In this document: positions 16,300-54,501 of the stretch, one piece after another
How the letters are laid out: each line of letters opens with the position of its first letter
Position numbering within the stretch: the stretch's first letter is position 1
Assembly (NCBI RefSeq): GCF_000165465.1
Contig: NC_017455.1
Span: 930,001-994,000, forward strand
Length of the DNA stretch: 64,000 nt
Source of the DNA: Halanaerobium praevalens DSM 2228
GTDB lineage: Bacteria > Bacillota > Halanaerobiia > Halanaerobiales > Halanaerobiaceae
Direction: 5' to 3'
Program-made: the position numbers and the translations under genes
The notes under the pieces: generated by a model
Seen by the model: only the letters and a program-made list of their open reading frames with translations
Told to the model about the DNA's origin: nothing
Databases searched by the model: none

Positions 16300-16331
16300 G
16301 TGAATTCACTTGTAACTAAGGGGGCGCTAAA

Positions 16332-17909: not shown

Positions 17910-17940
17910 TATTTATATTAACTAGAAAGGAGCTGATCAA

Positions 17941-19044: not shown

Positions 19045-19561
19045 CCTCCTGGAAAAAGATGCAAGTATTAAAGTTGAATGGGTAGAAATTTTAGTTGTTT
19101 TATTAATTATTTTGATTTTCACTTTACCTATTGTTCATTTTTATCTTAATTATATTGAAGTTCAAAATTTAAAACAACGCCGCATTAATTGGGAAACAAG
19201 GTTAAAAGCAATGGAACCAGAATTAGCCCATTATCAAAATCTAAAAAAAGAAATAGATAATTTTAAACTGCCAGCTAAAGTAGAACTGGAAAAATATAAT
19301 GTATATCCATTTTTCTTAGAATTTGCCAAAATAATCGAAGGAGAAATTAGTTTTAATAATTTAGATTATAATAGTGGACAAATAAATATCCAAGGTAGAG
19401 CAGATGATATTAATTCCTTATTAGACTTTTCTGCTCGAATTTTTGATTCAGAAGTTTTTTCTCTTATTTCTTTAGAAAGATTTGAAAAAAATAATAAATT
19501 AGAATTCAATCTAGTATTAAAACTTGATAATAGGCAAAAGGATGTGATTTATAATGAGTAA
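19034..19561 (+). CDS. pilN: PilN, inner-membrane alignment protein
   Basis: 175 residues. A short N-terminal MRVNLLEKD PilM-binding motif is followed by one membrane segment (about 16-36), a coiled coil and a ferredoxin-like periplasmic domain. Length and order (M-N-O-P-Q) fit PilN. It overlaps both neighbours, consistent with stoichiometric coupling. Confidence 0.88.
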   Translation: MRVNLLEKDASIKVEWVEILVVLLIILIFTLPIVHFYLNYIEVQNLKQRRINWETRLKAMEPELAHYQNLKKEIDNFKLPAKVELEKYNVYPFFLEFAKIIEGEISFNNLDYNSGQINIQGRADDINSLLDFSARIFDSEVFSLISLERFEKNNKLEFNLVLKLDNRQKDVIYNE

Positions 19562-20102
19562 TTTATCAAAAAGGGAAAAAATATTACTTTTTATTCTTCT
19601 GATAACTATAGTTATAGTTGCCTATTATTACTTGCTGTATCAACCAATTAAAAGCCAGCAGTCTAATTTAAAAAATCAAATAACTAATATTCAAACGGAA
19701 TATAGTAATAATTTAGCTAAAGTAAATAAAATCGATACTTTAGAATCAGATTTAGCTGCTTTAAAAAAGAAACGTAAAGAACGCCTAAATATAGTTATAA
19801 GAGAAGCAGAAGAAGTATTAGCAGCAATTAATTTTTTTGCTAATCAAAGTGGAATTGAAATTAAAAGTTATCAAAAAAATCAGGCTAAAAATGGATATCC
19901 TTTTACTTTCAATCTAGAAGGAAATTATTTTGGACTATTAGGCTTTTTTAAAATGCTTGATAACTGGGACTATAGATTAGTTGTGGAAAATTTATCTGCC
20001 GAAAGTATTCAGCCTGGTCAAGATAAAATAAATTTAAGTATCAATTTATTTTATCACCAAGCAGATGATTTAAAAGCTTTTAAAGAAAGTAAAGAGAGGT
20101 GA
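19554..20102 (+). CDS. pilO: PilO, inner-membrane alignment protein
   Basis: 182 residues with one membrane segment near residues 9-27, a coiled coil (about 30-90), then a compact domain (EEVLAAINFFANQSGIEIKS and FNLEGNYFGLLGFFKMLDNW) typical of PilO. It pairs with PilN to form the periplasmic scaffold. It overlaps pilN by 8 bases. Confidence 0.88.
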   Translation: MSNLSKREKILLFILLITIVIVAYYYLLYQPIKSQQSNLKNQITNIQTEYSNNLAKVNKIDTLESDLAALKKKRKERLNIVIREAEEVLAAINFFANQSGIEIKSYQKNQAKNGYPFTFNLEGNYFGLLGFFKMLDNWDYRLVVENLSAESIQPGQDKINLSINLFYHQADDLKAFKESKER

Positions 20103-20107
20103 TTTAA

Positions 20108-20584
20108 ATGAAATTTTTAAAAATATTATTTCTGCTTTGCTTGATAATGTTAATTAGTATTAATGTTTTTGCTTTAGAGCTTGAGGTTGAATCACAATTA
20201 AATGATTTTGTTCAATCTAATCTTTTAGTAGAGCTGGAAAAAGAAAATTTAAAAAACCCATTTTTTATAAAAAAAGAAAAAGTAGAATCTGATTTCAAAA
20301 AAACTTTAGACTTAGGTTTAAAAGCTAATCAAAAAGAAAGCAAGATAATTAAAGAGAATAAAGAGCAGCAATTAGATGAGCAAAAAAATAATTATAATCC
20401 TGAAATTAAAATAAATGGTGTTCTTAGAAGCTCTAATTCTAAATTAGCTTTACTTGTTAATTATAAAAATCAGAGTGAAATAATTAAAATTGGGGAGAGC
20501 TTGGATAGTTATAAGCTAATAAGTTATCAAGCTGGGGAAGCCACTTTTATAAATCAGGGAGAAAAATTTAAAGTAATATATTAA
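20108..20584 (+). CDS. PilP-like periplasmic protein
   Basis: 158 residues with an N-terminal signal peptide (about 1-22) and no lipobox cysteine. A charged linker leads to a small C-terminal beta domain (INGVLRSSNSKLALLVNY, then EIIKIGESLDSYKLISY), which is the PilP/GspC HR pattern. PilP links the PilN/PilO scaffold to the secretin. The absence of a lipidation site differs from proteobacterial PilP. The assignment rests mainly on position and the C-terminal domain. Confidence 0.7.
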   Translation: MKFLKILFLLCLIMLISINVFALELEVESQLNDFVQSNLLVELEKENLKNPFFIKKEKVESDFKKTLDLGLKANQKESKIIKENKEQQLDEQKNNYNPEIKINGVLRSSNSKLALLVNYKNQSEIIKIGESLDSYKLISYQAGEATFINQGEKFKVIY

Positions 20585-20615
20585 ATTTTAGTTAATATTG
20601 ATTGGAGGCGGAATT

Positions 20616-22505
20616 ATGTTAAATATAAAAAAAATTTCTATTATATTTTTAATTTTAATAATAACTTTTTCACTAGCAGCTACTGCAGCACCAGAAACTA
20701 AAATAGAAAATATGAATTTTAAAAATGCAGAACTGATTGATGTTTTAAGAACTATTGCAGAAGTAGCAAATGTTAATTTAATTACTGATGGCCAGGTTGC
20801 TGGTCAAATAACTGTTAATTTAAAGAATATAACTTTTAAAAAAGCTTTAGATCTAATAACTCAGAGTAAGGGTATTGATTATAAATGGGATCAAAATACA
20901 GTTGTAGTCGCTCCAACTGATAGATTAGAAAGTATTTATGCTAATTTAAAAACAGAATTTGTCAAAGTTAATTCTAATGACTTTGATAATATAGGTACTA
21001 TAATTAAAGAAATTTTTCCAGAAACCCAAATAACTTTAGATCCGACTAGAAGACAGTTTATATTAAAAGGAGAAAAAGAAAATTTAGTTGAAGTAAAAGA
21101 AATGATTGATAGTTTAGATTCAGAACAAAATAAAAATAATTTTGATGGTCAAAGTTCTAAGACAGCTGCTATAAAAGAGTTAGCAGCTTATAGTGAGAGT
21201 TATCAAGTTTTAAATGCTGAATTAGAAGATTTAAAGTCAAAATTAAGAACTGTAAATACAGGCTTAGATTATAAAGTTAATTCATTGACTGAAACAATGA
21301 CTATTAGTGGTAATAAAAAAGAAGTTAAAGAAGCTATTTCAATGGCAAAAACTTATGATCAAAGTTTAGAACCAGAAACAAGAAATATTAGAGTTGATTA
21401 TGTAGATACTGAACAAATAAGTGAGATAGTAGGCAAGTTTTATCCAGAAATTAAATTGCATGTTAATGCTAAACGAAAAGAAATTATCATTAATGGAGCT
21501 AAAAATAAACTTGATGGTGTTGAAGAATTAATAAATGAAATAAATAAACCACAATATCAAGTAGTTATTGAAACTAGGGTTGAAGAAATATCATCAGATT
21601 TTTCTAGAGAATTAGGAATTGATCATACTGATGGTGGTATTTTTAATATTATAAAAGAATCAACTAATAATGCTGATGGAGAAAGTTATAAAATAGAAAA
21701 ATTAGATTATAGCTGGCCAGATGTTTTTAAAGCTCTTGATACTTCTACAGATACTAAGACTTTAGCTAGCCCTAAATTAATGACTTTAAATGGGGAAGAG
21801 GCTAATCTTTCTATTTTAGAAGAGAAGCCTTATAAAGTTGTAAATACAGATTCAAATGGAGAAAAAACTACCAGTTGGGAATATGCAGAAGCTGGTGTTG
21901 AATTAACTTTCACTCCCTGGATTAGCAAAAATAATGAAATTGAATTAGAAATTGCTCCTACAGTTAGTAGTTTTAGTGAAATAGCTGATTCACAAACAGG
22001 AGAAGGCGAATCTCCTCCTCCAGCTAAAAAAAGTAGAAGTGTAGAAACAACTTTAAGATTAAAAGATAATGAAACATTTGCTGTAGGTGGTTTAATTCAG
22101 ACAGATAAAGAAGGGAAAATTACTAAAATTCCTTTATTAGGAGATTTACCACTTTTTGGTGAATTATTTAAATTTAGAGAGCCCAGTGACTCTACAAATG
22201 AGTTAATAATTTTTGTTACTCCTCATATTATTAAATATGGTGATGAAATAACAAATAAAAATATTATTAATCCTGAAAACGAAAAATTAGCTCCAGAAAT
22301 ACAAAAAGAAATAAAATTAAAAAATAATAAAGAAAATCAGGCAAAATTAGAGCAAGAAAAAACCAAAGAAGAAATAATAAAAGAATATCTAGAAAAAAGA
22401 AGTGAGAATAGAAAAGAAATTTTAAACTCTCTTAAAACAAATAAAGATAAAAAAGAATATCAAGATTTAACTCCTGCAGAATTAGAAGAAATTTTAGCAG
22501 ATTAA
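20616..22505 (+). CDS. pilQ: PilQ-type outer-membrane secretin
   Basis: 629 residues. A signal peptide (about 1-25) is followed by an STN/N0 domain (LIDVLRTIAEVANVNLI), NolW-type N1 repeats, and the secretin domain (YQVVIETRVEEISS to ELIIFVTPHII, about 308-540) with the conserved VGGLIQTDKEG and IPLLGDLP motifs. A charged C-terminal tail ends YQDLTPAELEEILAD. Secretins form outer-membrane channels, so the cell is a diderm. ATG 20616 follows GGAGG by 7 bases. A terminator follows. The tail recurs in the second secretin. Confidence 0.93.
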   Translation: MLNIKKISIIFLILIITFSLAATAAPETKIENMNFKNAELIDVLRTIAEVANVNLITDGQVAGQITVNLKNITFKKALDLITQSKGIDYKWDQNTVVVAPTDRLESIYANLKTEFVKVNSNDFDNIGTIIKEIFPETQITLDPTRRQFILKGEKENLVEVKEMIDSLDSEQNKNNFDGQSSKTAAIKELAAYSESYQVLNAELEDLKSKLRTVNTGLDYKVNSLTETMTISGNKKEVKEAISMAKTYDQSLEPETRNIRVDYVDTEQISEIVGKFYPEIKLHVNAKRKEIIINGAKNKLDGVEELINEINKPQYQVVIETRVEEISSDFSRELGIDHTDGGIFNIIKESTNNADGESYKIEKLDYSWPDVFKALDTSTDTKTLASPKLMTLNGEEANLSILEEKPYKVVNTDSNGEKTTSWEYAEAGVELTFTPWISKNNEIELEIAPTVSSFSEIADSQTGEGESPPPAKKSRSVETTLRLKDNETFAVGGLIQTDKEGKITKIPLLGDLPLFGELFKFREPSDSTNELIIFVTPHIIKYGDEITNKNIINPENEKLAPEIQKEIKLKNNKENQAKLEQEKTKEEIIKEYLEKRSENRKEILNSLKTNKDKKEYQDLTPAELEEILAD

Positions 22506-42046: not shown

Positions 42047-43717
42047 ATGCAAAGCTTTTATGATTTTTTAATTAATCAATATCAAATTCCAACTAAAGCC
42101 CAAGTAAAGTTATTTAATTTAACTCAAAATGAAAATTTAAAAAGTTTAATTGATTTTATTAAAACCAAAAACATAATTTCAGAAAAGAATTTGTTAACAG
42201 CAATGGCTAATTATTTTGATTTTAAATTATATAAAGATTTTAAAATAAAAAATAATAAAATTGAATTACCTCTTTTAGAATTAGAACAAGTAGAAAAATA
42301 TAAAATTATAATAATTAATAAAACAAAATCACTGATTTCTTTTGGCACTCTTTATCCTCCAGATTTATTTTTAGAAGAGAAATTAAAGTTTAAATTCAAA
42401 GTGCAAGTTAAATTTTATTTAATGTCAAAAAAAGAATTTTATCAACTAAAAGATTCTATTTATAGCAGTTATTTTAAAGTTGATCAACAGGAATTATTAA
42501 AAGAATTTAGTGATTTCAAAAAAATTGATAGTAGAGACATTGATAGTCTTAAAAATATAGTGGAAGATGCTCCAATTGTTAAATTATTAAATAAGATTTT
42601 AACAGAAGCAATAGCTGTAAAAGCAAGTGATATACATTTAGAAAAAAAAGAAAATTATTTTAAAATTAGATATAGAGTTGATGGTATTTTAAAAACTTAT
42701 TATAAATTACCAGTTAAAATTTCTGCTGCTGTTATTTCACGCATCAAAATTATTTCTGCAATGGATATAACAATTAGGCATTTACCCCAAGATGGAAAAA
42801 TGGAATTTAAATTCCAGGGAGCTATTTATGATATCAGAACTTCTGTAATTCCTACAATTTATGGAGAAAAGGCAGTTTTGAGATTATTATTGAGAAATGA
42901 AAACTTATTACAAGTTAAAGAATTAAATTTTAGTAAACATAATTTAAAAAGATTTAAGCAAATTTTGAAATTTAATTCAGGTATTATTTTAGTCTCTGGG
43001 CCAACAGGAAGTGGGAAAACAACTACTTTATTTTCAATTTTAAATGAATTAGCCACAGAAAAAAATAATATTATTACTGTTGAAAATCCAGTTGAATATA
43101 AACTTGATTTATTAAATCAAATAGAGATAAATAAAGCTCAAGGATTAAAATTCCCAATAATTTTAAGATCAATTTTAAGACAAGATCCAGATATTATAAT
43201 GATTGGAGAGATTAGAGATCAAGAAACAGCTCAAATTGCTGTCAGAGCTGCAGTTACAGGTCATTTGGTTTTAAGTACTATTCATACAGTAGATAGTATA
43301 TCAGCTGTAATTCGCTTAATAGATATGGGAATACCACCTTATTTAATCAGCAGTACTTTAAATGCAGTTATTGCTCAAAGGTTATTACTTAAGCTTTGCT
43401 CTAACTGCAAAGAAAAAATAAGACTTCAGCCCAAATATAAAACGATATTTAAAGAAAAAGATATAAATTATAGTTATCAGCCTGTAGGCTGTAAAAAATG
43501 TAATGATGGTCATTTAGGCAGAATACCTACAGCTGAAATTTTAATTATAAATAATCAAATTAGAAATATAATTAATCAAAATTCTAACTATTCTAAATTA
43601 AAACAAGCAGCAGTGGCTTCAGGAATGATGACTTTAGCTCAATCCTCTCTTGAAAAATTAAAAAATGGAATTGTTGCAAAAGATGAGCTTTTGAGAGTAA
43701 TAAATTTCAGTGCCTAA
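42047..43717 (+). CDS. GspE/PilB-type assembly ATPase of the second cluster
   Basis: 556 residues. The N-terminal 150 residues are divergent and lack the RLGxxL-type MshEN motifs of PilB. Then come the N2 domain (ASDIHLEKKENYFKIRYRVD), Walker A GPTGSGKTTT (about 317-326), DPDIIMIGEIRDQ, His box STIHTVDS and the zinc cysteines CSNC and CKKC. ATG 42047 follows AAAGGTGG; a GTG at 42038 overlaps that site. No retraction ATPase follows, so this powers a secretion pseudopilus or non-retractile pilus. Confidence 0.92.
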   Translation: MQSFYDFLINQYQIPTKAQVKLFNLTQNENLKSLIDFIKTKNIISEKNLLTAMANYFDFKLYKDFKIKNNKIELPLLELEQVEKYKIIIINKTKSLISFGTLYPPDLFLEEKLKFKFKVQVKFYLMSKKEFYQLKDSIYSSYFKVDQQELLKEFSDFKKIDSRDIDSLKNIVEDAPIVKLLNKILTEAIAVKASDIHLEKKENYFKIRYRVDGILKTYYKLPVKISAAVISRIKIISAMDITIRHLPQDGKMEFKFQGAIYDIRTSVIPTIYGEKAVLRLLLRNENLLQVKELNFSKHNLKRFKQILKFNSGIILVSGPTGSGKTTTLFSILNELATEKNNIITVENPVEYKLDLLNQIEINKAQGLKFPIILRSILRQDPDIIMIGEIRDQETAQIAVRAAVTGHLVLSTIHTVDSISAVIRLIDMGIPPYLISSTLNAVIAQRLLLKLCSNCKEKIRLQPKYKTIFKEKDINYSYQPVGCKKCNDGHLGRIPTAEILIINNQIRNIINQNSNYSKLKQAAVASGMMTLAQSSLEKLKNGIVAKDELLRVINFSA

Positions 43718-43733
43718 ATTGGAGTGAATCATT

Positions 43734-44765
43734 ATGTTTAAGAAAAAATTTGATTTCAATTTTTTTGCTGGCCAGTTAAAAATAATGCTGCAATCAGGTT
43801 TAAGCTTAAATAGAACTTTATTAATTATGGCTCAACAAAGTCGAAGTGAAAGAGAAGCTGAAATTTATAGTAATTTATTAAAAAATATTGAGTCAGGTTT
43901 AACCTTAGCTTCTGCTTTGAAAGAAGAAAAAATATTTAAAGATTTATTTATTGAAATTGTTCGAGCAGGTGAAAAAAGTGGTAGTTTAGTTAGTGTTTTA
44001 ACTAGTTTAGAAGAATATTATAAAAGTAAAAATGAATTAAAAAAAGAAATAAAAAAAGCTTGTTTTTATCCACTAACTGTGATCATAACTCTAATTTTAG
44101 CAGCCTTTTTTATTTTCAAATTTATATTGCCAGTTTTTGTAGACTTATTTGCAGAATTTAATGGTCAATTACCTTTTTTGACCAGAATTCTTTTAAGCTT
44201 AAGTTTAGGTTTTAATAAACATTTTATTTTATTTTTAATTTTTTCAATATTTATAATATTCTTTTCATATTATTTATATCAGAATACTAAAAGAGATGAT
44301 TTAAAAAGTAAATTAATTTTAAAAATACCAATGATTTCAACAATTTATAGAGATTTAATATTATGCCAAATAGCTGTCTATTTATCTTTACTTTTAAAAA
44401 GTGGTTTAGAATTAATAACTGCTTTAAAACTTTTAGAAAATATTATTCATGATTATCAATATAAAAATTTCATTCACGAAACAACTTTAAATATTTCAAA
44501 AGGAGCTTCAATTAAAGAATGTTTTGGTAATAGCAATTATATTCCAGATATTTTTTACTATTTTTTAATGACTGGAGAGGAAACTGCAAAAATAGATTTT
44601 ATGTTAAAAAAGGCAGGTGATTATTATTATTCTAAACTTAAAACAGAAATAGAGAAGATGCTGCAGTATTTAGAGCCTCTTTTAATCACATTAACTGCAA
44701 TTTTTGTCGCTTTACTTGCTGCAGCAGTAATTATGCCGATGTTTCAAATTTATTTAATTATTTAA
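43734..44765 (+). CDS. GspF/PilC-type platform protein of the second cluster
   Basis: 343 residues with two T2SSF repeats (FFAGQLKIMLQSGLSLNRTL and LCQIAVYLSLLLKSGLELIT), the RAGEKSG motif and about three membrane segments. It lacks the roughly 70-residue N-terminal extension of PilC in cluster 1. It follows the ATPase by 16 bases. Confidence 0.9.
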   Translation: MFKKKFDFNFFAGQLKIMLQSGLSLNRTLLIMAQQSRSEREAEIYSNLLKNIESGLTLASALKEEKIFKDLFIEIVRAGEKSGSLVSVLTSLEEYYKSKNELKKEIKKACFYPLTVIITLILAAFFIFKFILPVFVDLFAEFNGQLPFLTRILLSLSLGFNKHFILFLIFSIFIIFFSYYLYQNTKRDDLKSKLILKIPMISTIYRDLILCQIAVYLSLLLKSGLELITALKLLENIIHDYQYKNFIHETTLNISKGASIKECFGNSNYIPDIFYYFLMTGEETAKIDFMLKKAGDYYYSKLKTEIEKMLQYLEPLLITLTAIFVALLAAAVIMPMFQIYLII

Positions 44766-44805
44766 TAGTTTATTTTTAAATTAAAAATAAGAAAGGAAGT
44801 TGAAA

Positions 44806-45219
44806 ATGAAAAACAAAGAAGCTGGATTTACTTTAATCGAATTATTGATTGTTATTGTTGTTTTAGGGATTTTAATGTCAATGGCTGTACCTGCTTTAAG
44901 TGGAGTTAAAAATAAGGCTGATACAACTGTTGCTAAAGCAGATCTGCATAATATTATGCAGAGTTTAGAAATGTATTATTTAGATTATGGAGAATATCCC
45001 GGTCAGAGTACTAAAACTAAATTAACAACTATTAGTGATGATTTAAAAGAATTAAAACTTAAAAATAAGCCAGAAGATTACAGTTATCAAAGTGATTTAG
45101 ATACAGCAGCCCAAAAATATATAATTATTTACCAAGCGGCGGCAGATGAATATTATTATATCTCAACTACAGAATCTGCTTTAGTTGGTCCCAAAACAAG
45201 TGAGCCAAGTTTAGAGTAA
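44806..45219 (+). CDS. Major pseudopilin (GspG-like)
   Basis: 137 residues. Leader MKNKEAG is cleaved before FTLIELLIVIVVLGILMSMA with Glu5. KADLHNIMQSLEMYYLDYGEYPG is the GspG-type pattern of a helix followed by a YPG turn. ATG 44806 is 6 bases after AGGAAG. It has no PilD of its own cluster and must use the peptidase at 14585. Confidence 0.9.
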   Translation: MKNKEAGFTLIELLIVIVVLGILMSMAVPALSGVKNKADTTVAKADLHNIMQSLEMYYLDYGEYPGQSTKTKLTTISDDLKELKLKNKPEDYSYQSDLDTAAQKYIIIYQAAADEYYYISTTESALVGPKTSEPSLE

Positions 45220-45220
45220 A

Positions 45221-45703
45221 ATGAATAAGAGCAGTGGTTTTACTTTAATAGAAATTTTAATAGTAATTACACTGATGGGAATTTTATTTGGTCTTAGTTA
45301 TTCTTTGGAGTTAAAACAAGATTTTGCAGTTGAACAGCAGCTCGAAAGCATAGCTGCTGATTTAAGATGGGCCAGAAATAAAGCAGTTTTAGATAACCAA
45401 AGTTATATTTTTAGAATTTATACAGTTAAAGAGAATATGAATGAGAATAAAATTCCCTATTATTTTTATATTAAACAAAATGGTAAAAAAATTATAAAAA
45501 AGAAAGGTTATTATTCTGCAGAACTAATTTTATATAAAACTTTAAAGTTTAAATTAGTTGAATCTAAATATTATGAATGGATTAGATTTAATAATACAGC
45601 TACAGCAAGAGGTGGCACCATTGCTTTAGCTAAAGCAAATCCAGATGCAAATAAATATTCAGTTACAGTAAACCAACTAGGGAGGGTTAGAGTTGAAAAA
45701 TAA
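45221..45703 (+). CDS. Minor pseudopilin (GspH-like)
   Basis: 160 residues. Leader NKSSG precedes FTLIEILIVITLMGILFGLS; then SIAADLRWARNKAVLDNQSY resembles the GspH segment, and the last 40 residues (YSVTVNQLGRVRVEK) end in the typical GspH strand. It starts one base after the preceding stop. Confidence 0.85.
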   Translation: MNKSSGFTLIEILIVITLMGILFGLSYSLELKQDFAVEQQLESIAADLRWARNKAVLDNQSYIFRIYTVKENMNENKIPYYFYIKQNGKKIIKKKGYYSAELILYKTLKFKLVESKYYEWIRFNNTATARGGTIALAKANPDANKYSVTVNQLGRVRVEK

Positions 45704-46103
45704 CGCAGGTTTTTCACTTTTAGAAGTAGTAATTACAATTTCTTTAGCTGGAATAGTTTTAGCAGTGATGAGTAGAACTATTAAGACTGGCTTAGAAGTA
45801 CAAAGTTTTTTGGCAGATGAAAATGCAGCTTTAAATTGGACTGAATCTGTTTTAGAAGCTTATAAAAATAAAGAATCATTAAGTTTAGGCATTGCTGATA
45901 GTAATTCAAAATTTATAAAGAATTTGGAGTTATTAGAAAAAGAATCTCTACCTAAAAATTATAAACTAACTAAAGTTAAGATTAGTCCTTTTATTGATGG
46001 TGAAATTAAATATCAAGGCTTATATAAGCTAAAAGTACAAGTTGATTATGACTGCCATAATAAGGAGCGGAGACATGAAATTTTCACTTTGCTTGAAAAA
46101 TAA
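45693..46103 (+). CDS. Minor pseudopilin (GspI-like)
   Basis: 136 residues. Leader KNNAG precedes FSLLEVVITISLAGIVLAVM. The short body (ENAALNWTESVLEAYKN) fits GspI/PilV. TTG 45693 lies inside the end of the previous gene, after GGGAGGG, and the 3' end overlaps the next gene by 29 bases. Confidence 0.82.
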   Translation: MKNNAGFSLLEVVITISLAGIVLAVMSRTIKTGLEVQSFLADENAALNWTESVLEAYKNKESLSLGIADSNSKFIKNLELLEKESLPKNYKLTKVKISPFIDGEIKYQGLYKLKVQVDYDCHNKERRHEIFTLLEK

Positions 46104-46587
46104 ATTTAATTCGTCAGCTGGTTTTACTTTAATAGAGATTTTAATTGTACTTAGTATTTCTTCATTGTTAACTATCTGTTTTCTCCAATTAGTAATTAGA
46201 TTGTATCAGAACAATAATAATTTTATCTTTAAAAATTCTTGGCAATTAGATGCTTTTTTAGCAGTAAATTTTATGGTAGAACAAATAACAAACTCTATTA
46301 AGATAGAAGTCGTTAATCAAGGTGAATTAAATATTTATACTTATTATAATCATAATTATCAATGGCTTAAGTTTTCTCTTTTTCAGAATGAAAAAGGAAA
46401 GACATTAGCAAAAGCAATTGGTAGTGAAGAACCTTTACAGCAAGATTTCGGTAAAAATTTAACTTTGATTAATCAAGTTAAAGAACTTAAATTCATCAAA
46501 GTTAAACCAGGCTTATTGCAAATAAAACTTTTGTTGACTCAAAATAAAGAAGAATTAATTGTTTCTAGATTAGTTAAAATTAATTAA
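46075..46587 (+). CDS. Minor pseudopilin (GspJ-like)
   Basis: 170 residues. A longer leader ends SSAG before FTLIEILIVLSISSLLTICF with Glu5. ATG 46075 is favoured by AAGGAGCGG just upstream; an earlier ATG at 46042 lacks a site. The body (FMVEQITNSIKIEVVNQG) is GspJ-like. Confidence 0.82.
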   Translation: MKFSLCLKNKFNSSAGFTLIEILIVLSISSLLTICFLQLVIRLYQNNNNFIFKNSWQLDAFLAVNFMVEQITNSIKIEVVNQGELNIYTYYNHNYQWLKFSLFQNEKGKTLAKAIGSEEPLQQDFGKNLTLINQVKELKFIKVKPGLLQIKLLLTQNKEELIVSRLVKIN

Positions 46588-46601
46588 AAGTAGGTAAAAA
46601 A

Positions 46602-46985
46602 ATGAAATTTAACAATCAAGCGGGTTATATTCTTTTGCTAAATTTACTTTTAATAACTATGATCTCTTTATTTATTCCTTTACTAGTCCAACAGCAAAAA
46701 CTAAATTTTATGATTTTAAATAATAGAAAAAAATCAGCACAAAATAGAGAAATAGTAGATTCAGCTCTCCAATATCAGTTATATCATTTTAAAGAGAAAA
46801 AAATACTTTTAGATGATCAATTTATTTTAGAAAATAAATTTAAAGTTTTTGTTTTAGGAGAGGAGGATGATGATTTTGTTTATTTTAAAGCCAGATTAAA
46901 TAATAATCCAGCCTATGAATCAGAAATGAAAATTAGAAAGAGTAATATGGAAACAATTTACAAAAAAATATATAGGAGTGAATAA
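46602..46985 (+). CDS. PilX/GspK-like tip pseudopilin, short
   Basis: 127 residues. NNQAG precedes YILLLNLLLITMISLFIPLL with no Glu at position 5, as in GspK/PilX. It is only a quarter of the length of its cluster 1 counterpart (525 residues) and lacks the large tip domain, which suggests that the tips of the two systems do different jobs. Confidence 0.7.
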   Translation: MKFNNQAGYILLLNLLLITMISLFIPLLVQQQKLNFMILNNRKKSAQNREIVDSALQYQLYHFKEKKILLDDQFILENKFKVFVLGEEDDDFVYFKARLNNNPAYESEMKIRKSNMETIYKKIYRSE

Positions 46986-46986
46986 A

Positions 46987-47730
46987 ATGTTTAATAATTA
47001 CTATTCAATTTCAATTCCCTGTGGCAAAAAACTGAAAAACGTAGTAGTAAGAGCCAAAGATGAAAAAATAGATTTTGTTGAAGGTATTAATGAGATTTCT
47101 ACTATTGGCAAAATAAAAAAATTAAATTTTAATTGTCAGTATATTGTTCTTTTGCCAGCAGATTCTTTATTTTATCATTCAGTAGTTTTAGAAGAAAAAA
47201 ATCCTTATCGAATAAGTGAGGATAATATCTTAAGTAAATTTGCAGAAGTTAAAGAAAATTTTGCAGAAGAATTTTATTATGATTATCTTGAAATTGTTTC
47301 AGATAAAACTAAAGCAAGAGAAATAAAATTTTTTGCTGCTCCTAAAAATATGCTTGATCCAATTACAGAGACAATGGAAAAGCATAAAAATAATTTTTTA
47401 GTATCTGCTTTACCAGTGGCGGTATTTTCAATTGTGAATAAAATTGTTTCTGCTAAGAATTATCTTCTTTATTATAAAATTAATAAAAACTATACAATAT
47501 TAACTAGTATAGATAATAAATTGGGATTATTACAGTCTGCTATTAAAAAAGAAGATTTAAAAAATGAGATAAATAAAACTAAAAAATATTACCTTAATAA
47601 TAAGGGGATCGAATTAGAAGTCTTAGAAGGTAATAGTGATTTGCTTAACTTAGGGGACTATTTAGATTTGAAAGCAGATGATTTTGTTTTCTTAACTTCT
47701 CTATTTTGGAGTATTAATAAATGTCAATAA
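46987..47730 (+). CDS. Degenerate PilM/GspL-like protein
   Basis: 247 residues. By position it should be PilM (before N-, O- and P-like genes), but the nucleotide-binding motifs seen in PilM of cluster 1 (DFGHNS, LDIGTN, LTGGG) are missing. It may keep only a scaffold role like the cytoplasmic part of GspL. ATG 46987 is 8 bases after AGGAG; GTG 46978 overlaps that site. Confidence 0.6.
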   Translation: MFNNYYSISIPCGKKLKNVVVRAKDEKIDFVEGINEISTIGKIKKLNFNCQYIVLLPADSLFYHSVVLEEKNPYRISEDNILSKFAEVKENFAEEFYYDYLEIVSDKTKAREIKFFAAPKNMLDPITETMEKHKNNFLVSALPVAVFSIVNKIVSAKNYLLYYKINKNYTILTSIDNKLGLLQSAIKKEDLKNEINKTKKYYLNNKGIELEVLEGNSDLLNLGDYLDLKADDFVFLTSLFWSINKCQ

Positions 47731-48185
47731 TTTTTAAAGAAAAAAATTATAATCAAATTGTTTTAATTTTAAAGCATCTATTGCTAATAATTTTTATAAT
47801 ACTTATTTTAGTTTTAGCATTAAATTTGTTTTTAGAAAATAAAAATAATTCTTTAAATAAAAAACTAGTTGATTTAAAAAAAGAAGAATTTAAATATAAA
47901 AATTTACTAAAAACAACTAAAGCAGTTAAAAAAGTAGAAGAAAAAAAATTAGCAAACTATTATTTACTTATTAAATTAGCTAATTACGCTGAAAAGCTAA
48001 GTTATAAGTCAATTCACTTTAAAAATAAAAAGATTAATTTAACTGCAGTTACTAAAAATCAGACTCAAATATTTAAATTAGTTGATAATTTAAAAAAAGA
48101 TTTTCAGTTTAAAGCAGTAAATTTAATTAATATTAATTCAAATCAACAATTTGATTTTAAGCTAGAAGCATTTTTAGTTAATTAA
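47721..48185 (+). CDS. PilN-like inner-membrane protein
   Basis: 154 residues with one membrane segment (about 15-35), then a coiled coil and a small alpha/beta domain (LKKDFQFKAVNLININ). Position and layout match PilN of cluster 1. It overlaps the preceding gene by 10 bases. Confidence 0.72.
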   Translation: MSIIFKEKNYNQIVLILKHLLLIIFIILILVLALNLFLENKNNSLNKKLVDLKKEEFKYKNLLKTTKAVKKVEEKKLANYYLLIKLANYAEKLSYKSIHFKNKKINLTAVTKNQTQIFKLVDNLKKDFQFKAVNLININSNQQFDFKLEAFLVN

Positions 48186-48196
48186 TGGAGGGGAAA

Positions 48197-48661
48197 ATGA
48201 AAATTATTCAGAAAAAAATATTTATTTATATTTTAATTATCTTAGTACTTTTATTCTTAATTTTGCAGTCTTATTATCTAAAAAATAATTTTATCAAAAA
48301 TAAGTATTTGCATGCAAAAATTAAAAAACAACAGCAAAATAATATGGAATTTAAAACAAAATACCAAAAAAATATTAAAAAAAAGAACTCAAATAATAAT
48401 AGACATGCAAAACCTTTGGCAGCTAAAACAGCTTCTATTTTAGCTAAAGTCAAAACTTTGAATTTAAAATTAATAGACCTAAATAGAACTAAAAATGAAA
48501 TCAACTTAAATATTTCTGGTGATTTTCATTCTATTTTAAACTTAATTAAATACTTAGAAATTGAGATGATTGATCTAAAAATAAGAGAGTTTAAATTAAA
48601 AGATAATAATCAAAACTTATTCTTATTTTTAAAACTAACAAGATGGGTTGATGTTAAATGA
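48197..48661 (+). CDS. PilO-like inner-membrane protein
   Basis: 154 residues with one membrane segment (about 8-26), a Lys/Asn-rich coiled region and a C-terminal domain with NLNISGDFHSILNLIKYLE resembling PilO. ATG 48197 follows GGAGGGG; an ATG at 48185 is upstream of that site. Confidence 0.72.
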   Translation: MKIIQKKIFIYILIILVLLFLILQSYYLKNNFIKNKYLHAKIKKQQQNNMEFKTKYQKNIKKKNSNNNRHAKPLAAKTASILAKVKTLNLKLIDLNRTKNEINLNISGDFHSILNLIKYLEIEMIDLKIREFKLKDNNQNLFLFLKLTRWVDVK

Positions 48662-49317
48662 AAAAATTAAAAATTAATAAAAAAATAGTTCTAATTATCT
48701 TAACTTTAGTTTTAATTATCTCAATTTCTTTTAATTATGTTAAACTCAAAGGTAAAAAATCTACTAATTTATTAGAAAAGGAAAATGAAAACCAATTAAA
48801 AGTACAATCTCAAAGCAAAGAAGTAGCAGCAGCTAATTTAAAAATAAAAAACAAAAATTTAAATCTTAAAAGTAATTCAAAAGCAGAAATTACAGTTGAA
48901 AAATTAGCTACAATTAAAGAAATAAAAGATCCTTTTAAAATCGATAAAAATAATCAAAATTCTGCAAATCAAGATGCAGATTCAACTAATCCAATTAATC
49001 CAGATGAACTTTTATCACTAGAAAAAAATATTATTCAGCAAGTGAAAACTAAAAATCCAAATAAATCAGATAATTTAAGTCCCTCAATTGAAGACAATCT
49101 AAAATTAGATTTCAAGTTGCTAGGTATAATAAAGAATAAAAAACAGGCTGCTGCTCTTTTTTTATATCAAGGCAAAACCATTTTTAAAAAAGAAAAAGAT
49201 AAAATTAGTTCATTTGAGATTAAAAACATAAATAAGAAAGAGGTTATACTTTTTTATCAAGAAAAAGAAATAAAATTAAATTTATGGGAGGATCTAAAAG
49301 ATGGGACTGAAAGCTAG
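48658..49317 (+). CDS. PilP/GspC-like protein
   Basis: 219 residues with one N-terminal membrane segment, a long Asn/Lys-rich linker and a C-terminal beta domain (DFKLLGIIKNKKQAAALFLY, then VILFYQEKEIKLNLW) like the HR domain of GspC or PilP. It overlaps both neighbours and probably connects the inner platform to the secretin. Confidence 0.68.
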   Translation: MKKLKINKKIVLIILTLVLIISISFNYVKLKGKKSTNLLEKENENQLKVQSQSKEVAAANLKIKNKNLNLKSNSKAEITVEKLATIKEIKDPFKIDKNNQNSANQDADSTNPINPDELLSLEKNIIQQVKTKNPNKSDNLSPSIEDNLKLDFKLLGIIKNKKQAAALFLYQGKTIFKKEKDKISSFEIKNINKKEVILFYQEKEIKLNLWEDLKDGTES

Positions 49318-50617
49318 ACAGATAGTAGAAATTTTTGTTTTAGTAATAATTTTAGTTTTTTTATCAACTTTTGTTAGAGCAGAAACTAAAACAAAAGATT
49401 TGATTTCTATTAATCTTAGAGATGTGGAATTAGAGACAGCTTTAATAATGTTGGCTAATACAGCTGAAAAAAATTTGATCTGTGATAGTAAAGTAAATGG
49501 AAAAATAACTGTGTTATTTAATGATATAATTTTTGAAGATGCCTTAGATTTAATTACAGATAGTTTTGATTTAGCTTATAGCTATCAAAAAAATGTAATT
49601 TATGTTAGTACAAGTGAAAAAATGGCTTTAGACAAAAATGAATTTTATACTAAAAATTATAAATTCAATTATCTAACATCTGAAACCGCAGCTGAAATAT
49701 TAAAAAATAATTTTGAAGACATTAAAATAATTGATTTAAATAGTGAAGGTTTAATTGTCAGTTGTGCCAAACATGAATTTAATAAAATTGATCAAATAGT
49801 AAAAAAAATTGATCAGCCACAAAAACAAATTATGATTAAAGCTAGAGTTGAAGAAATCAGTAGAACAGAAATTAAAGAATTAGGTATTAATCCTAGTCAA
49901 TTAACTGAATTAAAAATAATAAAAAATGAAGCTGGAGATTTAGAAGAACTAAAACCTAATTGGCCTGATACTTTAAGATCTTTAAATGAAAGAGGTCTTT
50001 CTAATATACTTGCTAACCCTAGTTTAATGACTCTTGATCGAAAAAAAGCAAAATTAATAATTGGTGATCAAATACCAGTTAAATTAGAAAGAGTAGAATC
50101 AGAAAAAACAGTTTCTACAATTAATTATATAGAAGCTGGAATTGTTTTAGAATTTTTACCTAAAATTATCAATGAAAAAGAAGTTCTTTTAGAAATAAAA
50201 CCATCAGTTAATAGTTTAGGTCAAGTGCTTGCTGATGGTTTACCAGCTGTAAACTCCAGAAGTGCTGAAACAACTGTTATTTTAGAAAATGATCAAACTT
50301 TAGCTATTGGAGGCTTAATCAAAAAAGATGAGTTAAAAAGTATTAAAGAAGTACCTATTTTAGCAGATTTGCCGTTATTAGGAAAATTATTTTCAGCTGA
50401 AGAAAAAAATGATATAGAAACTGAATTAATTATTTTTATTACACCTAAAATTATAGAATCTAAAACTGAAATTAAAACTAAAACACCAGTTTTAACAGAA
50501 GAAAAATTAAATAATAAGATTAAAAAGCAGGAAAAAGAGGTCTTAAAAGAGAATAAAAGTAATAGAGAGTTTAAAAATCTAACAGAAGCAGAATTAAAAA
50601 AAATTTTAGATAAATAA
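49301..50617 (+). CDS. Secretin of the second cluster (GspD/PilQ-like)
   Basis: 438 residues. Signal peptide, N0/STN (SINLRDVELETALIMLAN), one N1 repeat and a secretin core (QIMIKARVEEIS to ELIIFITPKII) with IGGLIKKDELKSIKEVPILA. It is about 190 residues shorter than PilQ of cluster 1, mainly by lack of one N-domain. It ends FKNLTEAELKKILDK, matching the tail of the other secretin. GGGAGG precedes the ATG, and a terminator follows. Confidence 0.9.
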   Translation: MGLKARQIVEIFVLVIILVFLSTFVRAETKTKDLISINLRDVELETALIMLANTAEKNLICDSKVNGKITVLFNDIIFEDALDLITDSFDLAYSYQKNVIYVSTSEKMALDKNEFYTKNYKFNYLTSETAAEILKNNFEDIKIIDLNSEGLIVSCAKHEFNKIDQIVKKIDQPQKQIMIKARVEEISRTEIKELGINPSQLTELKIIKNEAGDLEELKPNWPDTLRSLNERGLSNILANPSLMTLDRKKAKLIIGDQIPVKLERVESEKTVSTINYIEAGIVLEFLPKIINEKEVLLEIKPSVNSLGQVLADGLPAVNSRSAETTVILENDQTLAIGGLIKKDELKSIKEVPILADLPLLGKLFSAEEKNDIETELIIFITPKIIESKTEIKTKTPVLTEEKLNNKIKKQEKEVLKENKSNREFKNLTEAELKKILDK

Positions 50618-50675: not shown

Positions 50676-50714
50676 AATAATAAAAACAAATGCTAATTGA
50701 AGGAGGTTAATTTA

Positions 50715-52334
50715 TTGAAAATAGTTTTAACTGGATTTATGACTGCTGGTAAAACAACAGTAGCTAAAATTATAGCAGCTAAAAAAAACTATAAATTTTA
50801 TGATAGTGATCAATTAATTGAAGCAAAAGAAAAAATGACTATTAAAGAAATATTTAAACTCAAAGGTGAAAAATATTTTAGAAAAATTGAAAAAGAGATT
50901 ATTATGAACCTTTTAAAAACAAAAAAAAATTTAGTATTGGCTACAGGTGGTGGCTCTATTATAAATAAAGAGTTAAGAAATCTAATCTTAGAGCAATCTG
51001 AAAGCTTTTGTTTAGATTTAAGTCCAGAAGCTGTTTTAAAGAGAGAAAAAAAGTCAAAGATACAACGGCCTCTACTTGCAGGGAATAATAAATTAAACAA
51101 GGTAAAAAAACTTTTAGCAAAGCGAAAAAAGTATTATCAACAAATTCCAATTCATTTTGATAGTGAAACAAATTCAGCGATAGAAATCGCAGATTTAATT
51201 TTAGCTGAATTACCTGAACAAAAAATAAATATTAAAATTGATTCTAAATCAATGGCTTATCCTGTAATTATAGAATCAAAATTTAAAAAAAATAGTTTTA
51301 AAAAAATTATAGATAAAATTAAAGGTAATAAGGTATTTTTATTGGTAGATCAAGTTTTAATGTCAAAACATAGTGCTCAAATAATTGATTTACTTAATAA
51401 AAATTCTCAGCTTGTCAAATTGGAGCTTAAAGCTGGAGAAGAAATTAAAAGCCTTAGTTATTTAAATCAGATTTATCAAATTTTATATGAAAATAATTTT
51501 AGTCGTTCTGATTATTTAATTGCTTTTGGGGGAGGTACTGTTGGTGATTTGGGTGGTTTAGCTGCCTCTACTTATTTAAGAGGTTTAAAACTAATTCAAC
51601 TGCCAACAACTATTATTTCTCAATTAGATAGTAGTATAGGTGGTAAAACTGCTGTTAACTTTAAAAATACTAAAAATATAATAGGTACTTTTTATCAGCC
51701 AGAATTAGTATATTATCAATTAGATTGGTTAAAAACTTTAGCTACTAGAGAAATAAAATCTGGTTTAGGAGAAGTTATAAAATATTCAATTTTAGCTGGT
51801 CCAGAACTCTTTGATCTTTTAGTTGAAAAAGAAACTGAAATTATTAACTTAGATGAAGATATTATGCTACAAATAGCCGAGATTTGTTTAAATACTAAAT
51901 ACGAATATGTAAGAAATGATGTTCAAGATAAAGGCTTGAGGAAAAAACTTAATTTAGGTCATAGTTTTGGTCATGCACTTGAAGCTACAGAAAATTTTAA
52001 TTATAAGCATGGACAGGCAGTAGTTATGGGAATTGCTTTTACAGCTTTTTTATCTAATAAAATAGGAGTTTTAGAATCAGATAAATTCAAAAAAATAATA
52101 AAATTAATTTTAAATTTCAATTATGAAATTTTTCCTTCACCAGCAATAAAAGTTAAGGATTTAATAAATTATTTAGCTTATGATAAAAAAAATAGTGGAA
52201 ATAAGATCTGGTGGGTTTTAATAAATGACATCGGTACTACTTATTTAAGTGATAGATTTAAGCAAAAAGAACTTAGTCAATATATGGAGGAATACTTATG
52301 CAAAAAGTGGCTATTATCCATGGACCTAATTTAA
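50715..52334 (+). CDS. Shikimate kinase-3-dehydroquinate synthase fusion
   Basis: 539 residues. The N-terminal part (about 1-165) is AroK: Walker A GFMTAGKTT, FYDSDQLIE, and ATGGGS with RKIEKE. The C-terminal part (about 180-535) is AroB: LIAFGGGTVGDLGGLAASTY, QLPTTIISQLDSSIGGKTAV, LGEVIKYSIL and NLGHSFGHALE with metal-binding His residues. It catalyses two shikimate-pathway steps. TTG 50715 follows AGGAGG. Fusion order K-B also occurs in other Firmicutes. Its place after a PilMNOP-secretin row matches the pilMNOPQ-aroK-aroB order of gammaproteobacteria. Confidence 0.95.
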   Translation: MKIVLTGFMTAGKTTVAKIIAAKKNYKFYDSDQLIEAKEKMTIKEIFKLKGEKYFRKIEKEIIMNLLKTKKNLVLATGGGSIINKELRNLILEQSESFCLDLSPEAVLKREKKSKIQRPLLAGNNKLNKVKKLLAKRKKYYQQIPIHFDSETNSAIEIADLILAELPEQKINIKIDSKSMAYPVIIESKFKKNSFKKIIDKIKGNKVFLLVDQVLMSKHSAQIIDLLNKNSQLVKLELKAGEEIKSLSYLNQIYQILYENNFSRSDYLIAFGGGTVGDLGGLAASTYLRGLKLIQLPTTIISQLDSSIGGKTAVNFKNTKNIIGTFYQPELVYYQLDWLKTLATREIKSGLGEVIKYSILAGPELFDLLVEKETEIINLDEDIMLQIAEICLNTKYEYVRNDVQDKGLRKKLNLGHSFGHALEATENFNYKHGQAVVMGIAFTAFLSNKIGVLESDKFKKIIKLILNFNYEIFPSPAIKVKDLINYLAYDKKNSGNKIWWVLINDIGTTYLSDRFKQKELSQYMEEYLCKKWLLSMDLI

Positions 52335-52744
52335 ATATGTTAGGAATAAGGGAACCTGAAATTTATGGAGGTACTAATTTAGCAGCACTTAATAATGATT
52401 TGAAAAAAAAAGCTAAAGAAATTGATTTAGAATTAGAGATTATACAGACTAATCATGAGGGGGAAATTGTTGATTTTTTACAGCAAAACTACAAAGAATT
52501 GTCAGGAATAGTAATTAACCCAGGTGGTTTAACTCATACTAGTGTTGTTTTGAGAGATGCTCTAGCATCAGTGAGATTAGCAGTTATTGAAGTTCATATT
52601 AGTAATATTTATCGAAGAGAAGAATATCGTAAAAAATCAATTACAGCAGAAGCAGCTGTGGGATTAATAACTGGTTTAGGAGTTTATGGCTATGTTTTAG
52701 CTTTAGAAGCATTAAAAAAAATATTGATAAAGGAGAAATACTAA
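52298..52744 (+). CDS. aroQ: Type II 3-dehydroquinate dehydratase
   Basis: 148 residues. It converts 3-dehydroquinate to 3-dehydroshikimate. Motifs are IIHGPNLNMLGIREPEIYGG, TNHEGEIVDFLQ, NPGGLTHTSVVLRDAL and EVHISNIYRREEYR, which contain the catalytic Tyr, Asn and His residues. It overlaps the aroK-aroB fusion by 37 bases and abuts pepP. Confidence 0.96.
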   Translation: MQKVAIIHGPNLNMLGIREPEIYGGTNLAALNNDLKKKAKEIDLELEIIQTNHEGEIVDFLQQNYKELSGIVINPGGLTHTSVVLRDALASVRLAVIEVHISNIYRREEYRKKSITAEAAVGLITGLGVYGYVLALEALKKILIKEKY

Positions 52745-53811
52745 TGAAAAAAAGAATTGATAAATTAAGAAAAAATTTAATTGAAAAAGATATAGAGGCC
52801 TTTTTAGTAACTAAAAGAGAAAATGTACGTTATTTAAGTAATTTTACAGGCACAGCAGGTAAATTATTAATAACTAAAAAAGATAATATTTTCATTACTG
52901 ATTTTCGTTATTTAGATCAGGCTGCAGAACAAACAGAAGGATGTGTAATTGAAGAAATAAGCAGTGACTTTGTTAAGGGATTTGCTGAACTTTTAAAAAG
53001 AAAAAATATTAAAAATTTAAGTTTTGAAAGTGAAGATTTAAACTTTAAAATGTATCAAAAATTAAAAGATAATTTAGACTTAGATTCATTTATGCCTTTA
53101 GAATCTCTGGTAGAAAATTTAAGATTAATTAAAGATCAGAGTGAAATTGAAAAAATTAAAAAAGCAGTAGAAATAGCAGATCAAGGTTTTGATTTCTTAA
53201 TTGATTTTATTGAACCTGGTAAAACAGAAAAAGAAGTCGCTTTAGAACTAGAATTTTTTATGAAAAGAAAAGGTGGAGAAGCTAATGCTTTTGATTTTAT
53301 AGTAGCCTCTGGCAAAAGAGGAGCTTTACCACATGGAGTGGCCTCAGATAAAAAAATAGAAACTGGAGATTTAGTTACAATTGATTTTGGTACTGTTTAT
53401 CAGGGATATCATTCTGATATGACCAGAACAATTGCAGTAGGAGAACCAGAAGCAAAATTAAAAAATATTTATGAGCTTGTTTTAAGTGCTCAGCAAAAAG
53501 TGATTAGAGAAATTAAAGCAGGTATGAGTTGTTTTGAAGCAGATAAAATAGCGAGAGATTTTATTGCAGAAGCAGGCTATAAAGAAAACTTTGGCCATGG
53601 TTTAGGACATGGACTTGGACTTGAAATTCATGAAGGGCCTAGACTTTCTTATAGCTCAGATTCTCAATTGAAAGCAGGAATGGTTGTTACAGATGAGCCT
53701 GGAATTTATGTTTCTGGTTTAGGTGGAGTTAGAATTGAAGATGATTTGGTAATTACTGAAAATGGTTGTCAAGTTTTAAATTCAGCTCCTAAAGAATTGA
53801 TTATTTTATAA
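52744..53811 (+). CDS. M24 Xaa-Pro aminopeptidase-like protein
   Basis: 355 residues. A creatinase N-terminal domain (about 1-125) is followed by the M24 catalytic domain with metal ligands in TIDFGTVYQGYHSDMTRTI, FGHGLGHGLGLEIHEGP, VTDEPGIYVSGLGGVRIED. Probably releases N-terminal residues before proline. The aroQ-pepP-efp order is conserved in Firmicutes (yqhS-yqhT-efp), and EF-P helps translate proline-rich proteins, so the association may be functional. Confidence 0.93.
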   Translation: MKKRIDKLRKNLIEKDIEAFLVTKRENVRYLSNFTGTAGKLLITKKDNIFITDFRYLDQAAEQTEGCVIEEISSDFVKGFAELLKRKNIKNLSFESEDLNFKMYQKLKDNLDLDSFMPLESLVENLRLIKDQSEIEKIKKAVEIADQGFDFLIDFIEPGKTEKEVALELEFFMKRKGGEANAFDFIVASGKRGALPHGVASDKKIETGDLVTIDFGTVYQGYHSDMTRTIAVGEPEAKLKNIYELVLSAQQKVIREIKAGMSCFEADKIARDFIAEAGYKENFGHGLGHGLGLEIHEGPRLSYSSDSQLKAGMVVTDEPGIYVSGLGGVRIEDDLVITENGCQVLNSAPKELIIL

Positions 53812-53873
53812 ATTAAAATCCAGACTATACTTTGCTGACAAACTTTAAATCAAATTTAGTTAGAGTTTATAAT

Positions 53874-53902
53874 TTGTTTAAAAAGATAATTTCTGCTATA
53901 AT
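53874..53902 (+). promoter_or_regulatory. Sigma-A-type promoter of efp
   Basis: TTGTTT (53874-53879), a 17-base spacer and TATAAT (53897-53902), about 35 bases before the efp start. Confidence 0.75.
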
Positions 53903-53937
53903 TGAACTGCAGCAAAAAATAGTGGAGGTGGCCGTAA

Positions 53938-54501
53938 ATGATTTCAACAAATGATTTTAATACAGGTTTAACAATAGAGCTAGAAGGGGAAGTATATCAA
54001 GTTATAGAATTTCAGCATTCTAAATCTGGCAGAGGTAGTGCTTTTGTTAGAACAAAATTGCGTAATGTTGAAGAAGGATATACAATTAATAAAACTTTTA
54101 AGGCAGGAGAAAAAGTAGAAACTGCTCATGTAGAAAAAAAGAAAATGCAGTATCTATATTGGGATGGTAGTGATTATATTTTTATGGATAATGATACATA
54201 TGAACAATTTAGCTTAAGTGAAGAACAACTTGGAGATAAGGTTAAGTATTTAAAAGAAAATATGGAACTTGATATATCTGTTTATCAAGGTAAACCGATT
54301 GATATAGATTTACCTACCTTTGTTAAATTAAAAGTAGAAAGTACTCCTCCTAATGTTAGAGGTAATACAGTTTCGGGAGGTAATAAGCCAGCTACAATGG
54401 AAACTGGCTTGGTAACTCAAGTGCCTTTATTTATTGAAGAAGGGGATATACTTAAAATAGATAGTAGAACTAATGAATATGTAGAAAGAGCTAATAAATA
54501 A
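53938..54501 (+). CDS. efp: Translation elongation factor P
   Basis: 187 residues with three beta-barrel domains. It rescues ribosomes stalled at polyproline. The modification loop reads [18 protein letters not shown]; the residue at the tip is Ser-Gly rather than the more usual Lys-Pro-Gly, so modification may differ. [18 protein letters not shown] is the typical domain II/III junction. The start follows GTGGAGGTG. Confidence 0.96.

Follow-up and report, generated by a model that had tools for sequence, protein, structure and literature searches.

Cluster 2 of Halanaerobium praevalens DSM 2228, a block of twelve filament genes in the order E-F-G-H-I-J-K-M-N-O-P-D (positions 42047-50617, + strand), is, as judged from trees of its ATPase and platform, a paralogue of type IV pili (T4P) by descent and not a type II secretion system (T2SS). 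It lies in a 64,000-nucleotide (64-kb) stretch of contig NC_017455.1, which we call the window and whose positions are used throughout; suffix 2 denotes genes of cluster 2 and suffix 1 those of cluster 1, a second filament cluster in the window, whereas relatives are coded as genomes (G001 etc.), loci (L036 etc.) and families (f1-f8). In these trees cluster 2 belongs to a separate clade devoid of the retraction ATPase PilT, which is nearest to the T4P of its own order, the Halanaerobiales, and appears to have stayed at an ancestral locus marked by aro genes. We propose that it is a PilT-less filament system, specific to the Halanaerobiales, that exports proteins by means of a pseudopilus, a proposal to which we give about an even chance of being right.

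The main tree combines ATPase and platform (65 rows, 785 columns, LG+C20 PMSF, careful search) and its root was not inferred. One branch (100/99) sets the Halanaerobiales T4P together with the cluster-2 lineage apart from 38 other rows including the T2SS clade, and the cluster-2 lineage is itself united at 100/99. The 65 rows are those of a 66-row tree (62 of 94 rows plus 4 added) minus ComG, and the 94-row set had been made after removing four almost identical cluster-2 loci together with five second ATPases. Approximately unbiased (AU) tests, run on 26-, 35- and 24-row subsets, rejected a grouping of cluster 2 with T2SS at p 3.1e-5 (26 rows), p 0.0106 (35 rows with ComG), and, in 24 rows each, p 0.00185 when its lineage was represented by cluster 2 of the window alone and p 0.00163 when it was represented by G001 alone; each of these single members joined the Halanaerobiales T4P at 100. 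A tree of secretins (43 rows, 372 columns) finds D2 among Halanaerobiales PilQ, and all 13 Halanaerobiaceae D2 score 157-193 bits with PilQ1 versus 77-100 bits with Escherichia coli GspD. One 35-row tree united ComG with clade 2 at 99, a grouping that we put aside, since long branches probably produced it: the tree with ComG apart from clade 2 scores better by 9.6 log units, and upon removal of the long f4 branches clade 2 joins the Halanaerobiales T4P at 95.7, the ComG grouping being 7.3 log units worse (p 0.069).

A duplication confined to the Halanaerobiaceae, as suggested by G021, in which cluster 2 stands directly behind cluster-1 pilQ in tandem, was rejected (p 7e-60). On this evidence the split between clusters 1 and 2 appears to be as old as the order and to predate the Halanaerobiaceae, cluster 2 being no recent local copy. 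A first interpretation of the region, made from the letters and open reading frames (ORFs) alone and referred to here as the sequence-only reading, had seen a paralogous copy, and this holds for a T4P paralogue and fails for a recent copy of cluster 1. It had also offered a T2SS-like or non-retractile pilus, of which the T2SS-like layout stands and T2SS by descent does not. Placement with a known T4P subtype, which it had named as evidence against itself, was borne out by half, because cluster 2 is nearest to the T4P of the order and yet forms a PilT-less clade of its own.

The twelve ORFs are packed closely, most of them overlapping or sitting a few bases apart, between a sugar-kinase gene and a fused aroK-aroB (2-keto-3-deoxygluconate kinase and aroK-aroB were named by eye):

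42047..43717, + strand: E2, assembly ATPase of the PilB/GspE type, 556 amino acids (aa), Pfam T2SSE 407.7 bits.
43734..44765, + strand: F2, inner-membrane platform of the PilC/GspF type, 343 aa, T2SSF 139.2 bits.
44800..45219, + strand: G2, major pilin or pseudopilin with a G^FTLIE site, GspG model 68.8 bits against a cut-off of 88.85.
45221..45703, + strand: H2, minor pilin of the GspH/FimU type, Pfam GspH 22.3 bits against a cut-off of 21.
45693..46103, + strand: I2, minor pilin at the GspI/PilV position, from N_methyl (28.6 bits) and gene order.
46081..46587, + strand: J2, minor pilin at the GspJ/PilW position, from N_methyl (26.5 bits) and gene order.
46602..46985, + strand: K2, putative tip pilin, 127 aa, from an alignment of 9 orthologues.
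46978..47730, + strand: M2, degenerate actin-like PilM, nucleotide motifs missing.
47721..48185, + strand: N2, PilN-like, Pfam PilN 22.9 bits, barely above the cut-off of 22.8.
48185..48661, + strand: O2, PilO/GspM-like, hhalign to cluster-1 PilO E 1.2e-6.
48658..49317, + strand: P2, PilP/GspC-like, hhalign to cluster-1 PilP E 4.7e-9.
49301..50617, + strand: D2, short PilQ-type secretin, 438 aa, Secretin 151.9 bits.
50697..54501, + strand: flank with fused aroK-aroB, aroQ, pepP and efp (gene names by eye), which marks the ancestral filament locus.

ORF and family searches confirm that the block runs from E to D with neither pilT nor a prepilin peptidase inside it. E2 retains Walker A (GPTGSGKTT), Walker B and the four-Cys motif, its motor motifs being invariant in the alignment, and its N-terminus is a degenerate MshEN (17.6 bits in Pfam, where the cut-off is 23.1), the N-terminus of the c-di-GMP type being absent, as the sequence-only reading had it. 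Against the NCBI models for PilB and GspE it scores 497.7 and 497.0 bits, each below its cut-off. F2 is shorter than PilC1, lacking some 60 N-terminal residues, and matches positions 66-397 of the 401 of the GspF model. By Pfam and NCBIfam searches G2, H2, I2 and J2 carry a prepilin N-terminus, whereas no family match was found for K2; this protein has a prepilin-like N-terminus with no Glu at +5 and lacks the large alpha domain, in keeping with the short tip pseudopilin described before.

The same searches gave no trustworthy family match for M2, O2 and P2. As the profile match of M2 to PilM is marginal (E 0.07), M2 was identified by its fold: the top PDB match of its AlphaFold model (mean pLDDT 61, low confidence) is PilM of Pseudomonas aeruginosa (E 6.8e-8), FtsA and further PilM structures ranking next, and the alignment upholds the claim of a PilM-like protein without nucleotide motifs. 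P2 consists of a transmembrane segment, a linker and a C-terminal region that matches PilP, and Pfam gave no PDZ match. With M2 and N2 separate and O2 and P2 matching PilO and PilP, the inner parts are of the PilN/O/P rather than the GspL/M/C type, again as previously read. The N-terminal part of D2 shows a sub-threshold N0 and one short N-domain match.

The twelve-gene order is kept, with all genes as open frames, in L036-L046, representing ten genomes of Halanaerobium and G022, and the same order with a longer PilM is found in G021 (L047), where small genes were placed by position if unmatched; the block is thereby syntenic in 12 further genomes (L036-L047). An ATPase search found E2 in 12/12 Halanaerobium genomes, and the block occurs in two sister genera as well. 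In a platform search across the phylum (149 genomes) the best match outside the Halanaerobiaceae had E 1.7e-52. Wherever the locus of a relative extends that far, aroKB, aroQ, pepP and efp follow the block. Outside the Halanaerobiaceae a PilT-less block is present in G001 (f2) and in G023, G024, G026, G027 and G029 (f4), at a shared site, fur-crp-(aroE)...(aroK-aroQ)-pepP-efp, where cluster-2-type blocks stand alone; in G005 it is cluster 1 itself that precedes aroK. The major pilin G2 has a mean column identity of 62% over 14 sequences, and N2, O2 and P2 diverge quickly (32-45% identity among the four nearest relatives compared). The aroK-aroB fusion is a single 545-aa ORF (window 50697-52334) in Halanaerobium and G022, the two genes being separate in G021 and other families. 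The plasmid-borne relatives among the matches listed are T2SS, T4P-type and conjugation ATPases.

A genuine T2SS of the order served as a control. In the Halanaerobiales families f3 and f5, and in f8 of the same class, a different PilT-less system is found (L053, L055, L141, L142, L145, L201), and L053-type ATPase and platform fall within the T2SS clade beside Xps-like systems. L053 passes the NCBIfam cut-offs for GspE (630.5 against 630.25 bits) and GspG (160.9 against 88.85), whereas cluster 2 misses both equivalog cut-offs (E2 497.0 against 630.25, G2 68.8 against 88.85). The cluster-2 lineage and the T2SS type do not occur together in any genome of the order (0/38). The best match of F2 is GspF, which we do not count as evidence for a T2SS because PilC1 also scores best with GspF. 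L055 adjoins a 2277-aa ORF, possibly a large secreted protein.

The orthologues appear to form a graded series, in which G001 and G021 keep the PilM motifs and MshEN, and Halanaerobium has neither. PilM_2 scores are 97.5 bits in G001 and 43.0 in G021, with none for M2, and the actin-like nucleotide motifs are present in both of these deeper orthologues (2/2) and absent from 11 aligned sequences of the genus and G022. MshEN declines from 70.4 bits in G001 through 43.0 in G021 and 34.5 in G022 to 19.8 in G011 and 17.6 in the window, both below the cut-off, and G018 gave nothing at E 0.01; scans of these three genus sequences (window, G011, G018) indicate that MshEN was lost in Halanaerobium. We suggest, at somewhat less than even chances, that in diderm Bacillota a secretion machine arose from their own T4P, separately from the proteobacterial T2SS. 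The lineages from G001 through G021 and G022 to Halanaerobium would preserve the order of loss, in which PilT went first, the ATP site of PilM next and the MshEN domain of the c-di-GMP type last, and a different branch of the order would rely on a genuine T2SS instead.

The whole genome (2,309,262 bases) was searched for filament ATPases and A24 peptidases, and cluster 1 holds what cluster 2 lacks:

7595..22505, + strand: cluster 1, of the type IVa pilus (T4aP) type, PilB-PilT-PilC-PilA-Wzy-PilA-PilD-minor pilins-PilM-N-O-P-Q, the paralogous reference.
14585..15328, + strand: PilD1, A24 prepilin peptidase in cluster 1, the only real one found in the genome.

Three ATPases of the family were found, PilB1, PilT1 and E2, PilT1 being the sole retraction ATPase detected genome-wide, and PilB1 retains MshEN (71.9 bits) and the c-di-GMP motif domain (62.6 bits). 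A second A24 match is weak and carries five stop codons, which agrees with the expectation that cluster 2 has no peptidase of its own; PilD1 presumably serves both clusters. Exactly one A24 peptidase was found in 10/12 Halanaerobium genomes (each at least 98% complete) and none in the two incomplete ones. In G022 another PilD lies some 13 kb upstream of cluster 2 (L202, C3:80000-98000), so that peptidase sharing is firm only within the genus. Two 95%-complete drafts, G001 (L139) and G025 (C90:31505), have an ATPase of the cluster-2 kind as their sole filament ATPase; no PilT was found in them, and two models gave no convincing A24 prepilin peptidase there, nor in G026 and G029. The pilins of L139 still have GFTLIE.

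The genus holds two distinct versions of cluster 1 (L051, L153 and L157 were compared with window 7595-22505), and G011 PilB, 53% identical to PilB1, lies on another branch of the T4P clade. Even with a PilB identity of at least 85%, the minor pilins V, W and X of cluster 1 reach no more than 24-69%. A Wzy_C gene (O-antigen-ligase family) is located between two cluster-1 pilin genes (window 12355-14097) and a second is found near D2 in 6/12 related cluster-2 loci (L038, L041, L042, L044, L045, L047); glycosylation of pilins or substrates is a possible role. Cluster-1 PilQ proteins of 803-916 aa (L054, L143, L144, L148) end in a stretch that by eye resembles a LysM repeat and perhaps binds peptidoglycan.

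D2 and PilQ1 share a C-terminal tail. A motif of approximately [FY]xxLTxxELxxIL, drawn up after the tails had been inspected, ends 13/13 Halanaerobiaceae D2 and six cluster-1-type PilQ, of which five come from Halanaerobiaceae and one from f3; it is missing from the remaining 48 of the 67 secretins examined. Shuffled tails match it at 6e-5, and the f2 and f4 blocks lack it. Such a common tail suggests that a single outer-membrane targeting partner may serve both secretins.

The major pilin of cluster 2 is conserved to the degree of its motor. Across six relatives with a window-type cluster 1 the ratio of G2 to E2 identity is 0.98-1.14, as against 0.47-0.82 for cluster-1 pilins and PilB1. For cluster 2 the pilin/ATPase ratio has a median of 0.95 (55 pairs; pairs are not independent), compared with 0.98 for the T2SS of the order (10 pairs) and with 0.56, 0.53 and 0.41 for three sets of T4P (6, 3 and 6 pairs); loci without a recognised pilin behind F were excluded, among those listed L058, L061, L064, L117, L132, L143 and L150. 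This conservation favours a filament that is not exposed. By structure, the fold nearest to the G2 model is the T4 pilin PilA4 of Thermus (Z 9.1), with a tie between T4 pilin and GspG.

The absence of PilT, the motor-like conservation of the pilin and the lack of any genome with both cluster 2 and the T2SS of the order favour an exporting pseudopilus, and we rank this function first, ahead of an extension-only pilus and then of DNA uptake. PilD1 of cluster 1 would process all five prepilins, and E2 together with F2 would build a short periplasmic pseudopilus of G2 capped by H2-I2-J2-K2; as the cluster has no motor for retraction, its subunits would be turned over and not pulled back. In T2SS the cytoplasmic domain of GspL is a static adaptor, a role that M2 may take, with N2, O2 and P2 connecting the platform to the small D2 gate, through which the pseudopilus would drive folded proteins outward. 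Such a machine would operate like a T2SS without T2SS descent.

Several points weigh against export. Closely packed minor pilins, PilMNOP and the missing PilT also fit an extension-only pilus, and PilT1 could act on cluster 2 in trans. ComEA and ComEC are present in genomes of the order, making DNA uptake possible. D2 is much shorter than most GspD in the set, and the AU test on secretins fails to reject a T2SS grouping (p 0.20). The mutual exclusion of cluster 2 and T2SS runs along family lines and does not consist of independent cases, and broad Gsp and Xps sets of T2SS have pilin/ATPase ratios of only 0.62 (21 pairs) and 0.60 (6), near the T4P values, so that pilin conservation is suggestive and not diagnostic. 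Of the earlier phrase 'turned into a secretion system' the T4P origin is carried by the trees, whereas export by cluster 2 is something that we infer.

A surface pilus, in which G2 would form a long thin filament through D2 for adhesion or aggregation, static or borrowing PilT1, is in our view unlikely though worth serious attention. It would suit the T4P descent seen in the trees, the closeness of the G2 model to PilA4, a secretin of the PilQ type and the O-antigen-ligase family gene that adjoins D2 in 6/12 related loci, as genes of this kind can glycosylate pilins. Exposed pilins, however, usually diversify, as those of cluster 1 do (0.47-0.82) and G2 does not (0.98-1.14), and the two 95%-complete drafts that have only the cluster-2 kind of ATPase yielded no PilT. 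We consider it improbable that cluster 2 is a DNA-uptake filament, the diderm counterpart of the Bacillota ComG pilus supplying ComEA and ComEC, even though the order comGA-GB-GC-GD-GE-GF-GG matches E-F-G-H-I-J-K and gene number, the short platform and the short last pilin are as in ComG. ComEA-type helix-hairpin-helix matches occur in 38/38 genomes of the order and ComEC in 33/38, including G001 and G025 with their cluster-2-type ATPase alone. The one tree that unites ComG and clade 2 at 99 is offset by the better tree with ComG outside (log-likelihood +9.6) and by the return of clade 2 to the Halanaerobiales T4P without f4 (95.7; p 0.069 for the ComG grouping). ComEC is found also in families without cluster 2 and was not found in G026 and G029, which retain the f4 block, a distribution that is compatible with DNA uptake without requiring it.

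That cluster 2 is a true T2SS gained by transfer, the parts of which have since diverged, is largely refuted and very improbable. The gene order is T2SS-like, there are five pseudopilins, G2 and H2 score highest with the GspG and GspH models and the secretin test leaves the grouping unrejected, but the AU tests of ATPase plus platform (p 3e-5 to 0.011), the GspE and GspG cut-offs that the real T2SS of the order passes, and the same ancestral aro locus with a vertical pattern in f1, f2 and f4 all oppose it. We give hardly any credence to a decaying, non-functional spare copy, to which long branches and the fast divergence of N2, O2 and P2 (32-45% identity) could point: all twelve genes are open in L036-L046, the motor motifs are invariant and G2 keeps 62% mean column identity.

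It is still an open question how a pilus changes into an exporter, and transitional forms linking T4P to the proteobacterial T2SS are difficult to come by. Within a single order there seem to be a pilus, a graded secretion-like paralogue of it and, in sister families, a genuine T2SS, so that comparison can test what the loss of PilT, the ATP site of PilM and the N-terminal domain of the ATPase contribute. The occurrence of the same C-terminal motif in both secretins of a cell would point to a shared, as yet unnamed outer-membrane partner in diderm Bacillota.

Among known systems, cluster 2 resembles T2SS, the Xps type of which is ordered E-F-G-H-I-J-K-L-M-N-D, in gene order, in its one assembly ATPase, one platform and five pseudopilins of the GspG-K kind, in an adaptor without nucleotide motifs and in the absence of a retraction ATPase. 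It differs in falling outside the T2SS clade and in having a separate PilM and PilN in place of a fused GspL, no PDZ match in P2, a 438-aa secretin, a K2 of 127 aa in place of a large GspK (327 aa in E. coli) and no GspO. ComG of monoderm Bacillota shares gene order and pilin number, the short platform and the lack of PilT, whereas its tree position beside clade 2 is unstable and ComG systems are not known to have a secretin or PilMNOP. To the T4aP-type pilus of the Halanaerobiales, that is cluster 1, cluster 2 is nearest by the (unrooted) grouping of ATPase and platform and by secretin topology, and the two have in common a PilM-N-O-P module with a secretin, the fur-crp-aroE ... aroK flank and, in Halanaerobiaceae, the secretin tail. 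Cluster 2 departs from it in having no PilT or PilD of its own, a degenerate PilM (M2 without nucleotide motifs) and MshEN, a short platform and secretin and a conserved major pilin.

For the Halanaerobiales, Antunes et al. 2016 (PMC5007114) report a T4P locus that is conserved and includes PilQ, the kind to which cluster 1 belongs. Of the six secretin-bearing filament systems that Denise et al. 2019 (PMC6668835) list for diderm Firmicutes, one is a T2SS. Our literature search found no paper joining Halanaerobium, type II secretion and type IV pili, and the portions consulted of PMC6668835, PMC5007114 and PMC4793230, supplements aside, do not describe the second cluster. According to Denise et al. 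(PMC6668835), MSH (MSHA-type) loci lack a prepilin peptidase and may borrow one, a precedent for the use of PilD1 by cluster 2, although MSH belongs to another clade, set apart here by description rather than by a tree. The same paper has the T2SS-like system of Bacteroidetes, of which a putative case is that of Cytophaga hutchinsonii (PMC5553014), clustering with T4aP away from other T2SS. This system belongs to another phylum and is linked to cellulose use, and its likeness to cluster 2 is by description, not by a tree; it provides a precedent for the independent origin proposed here.

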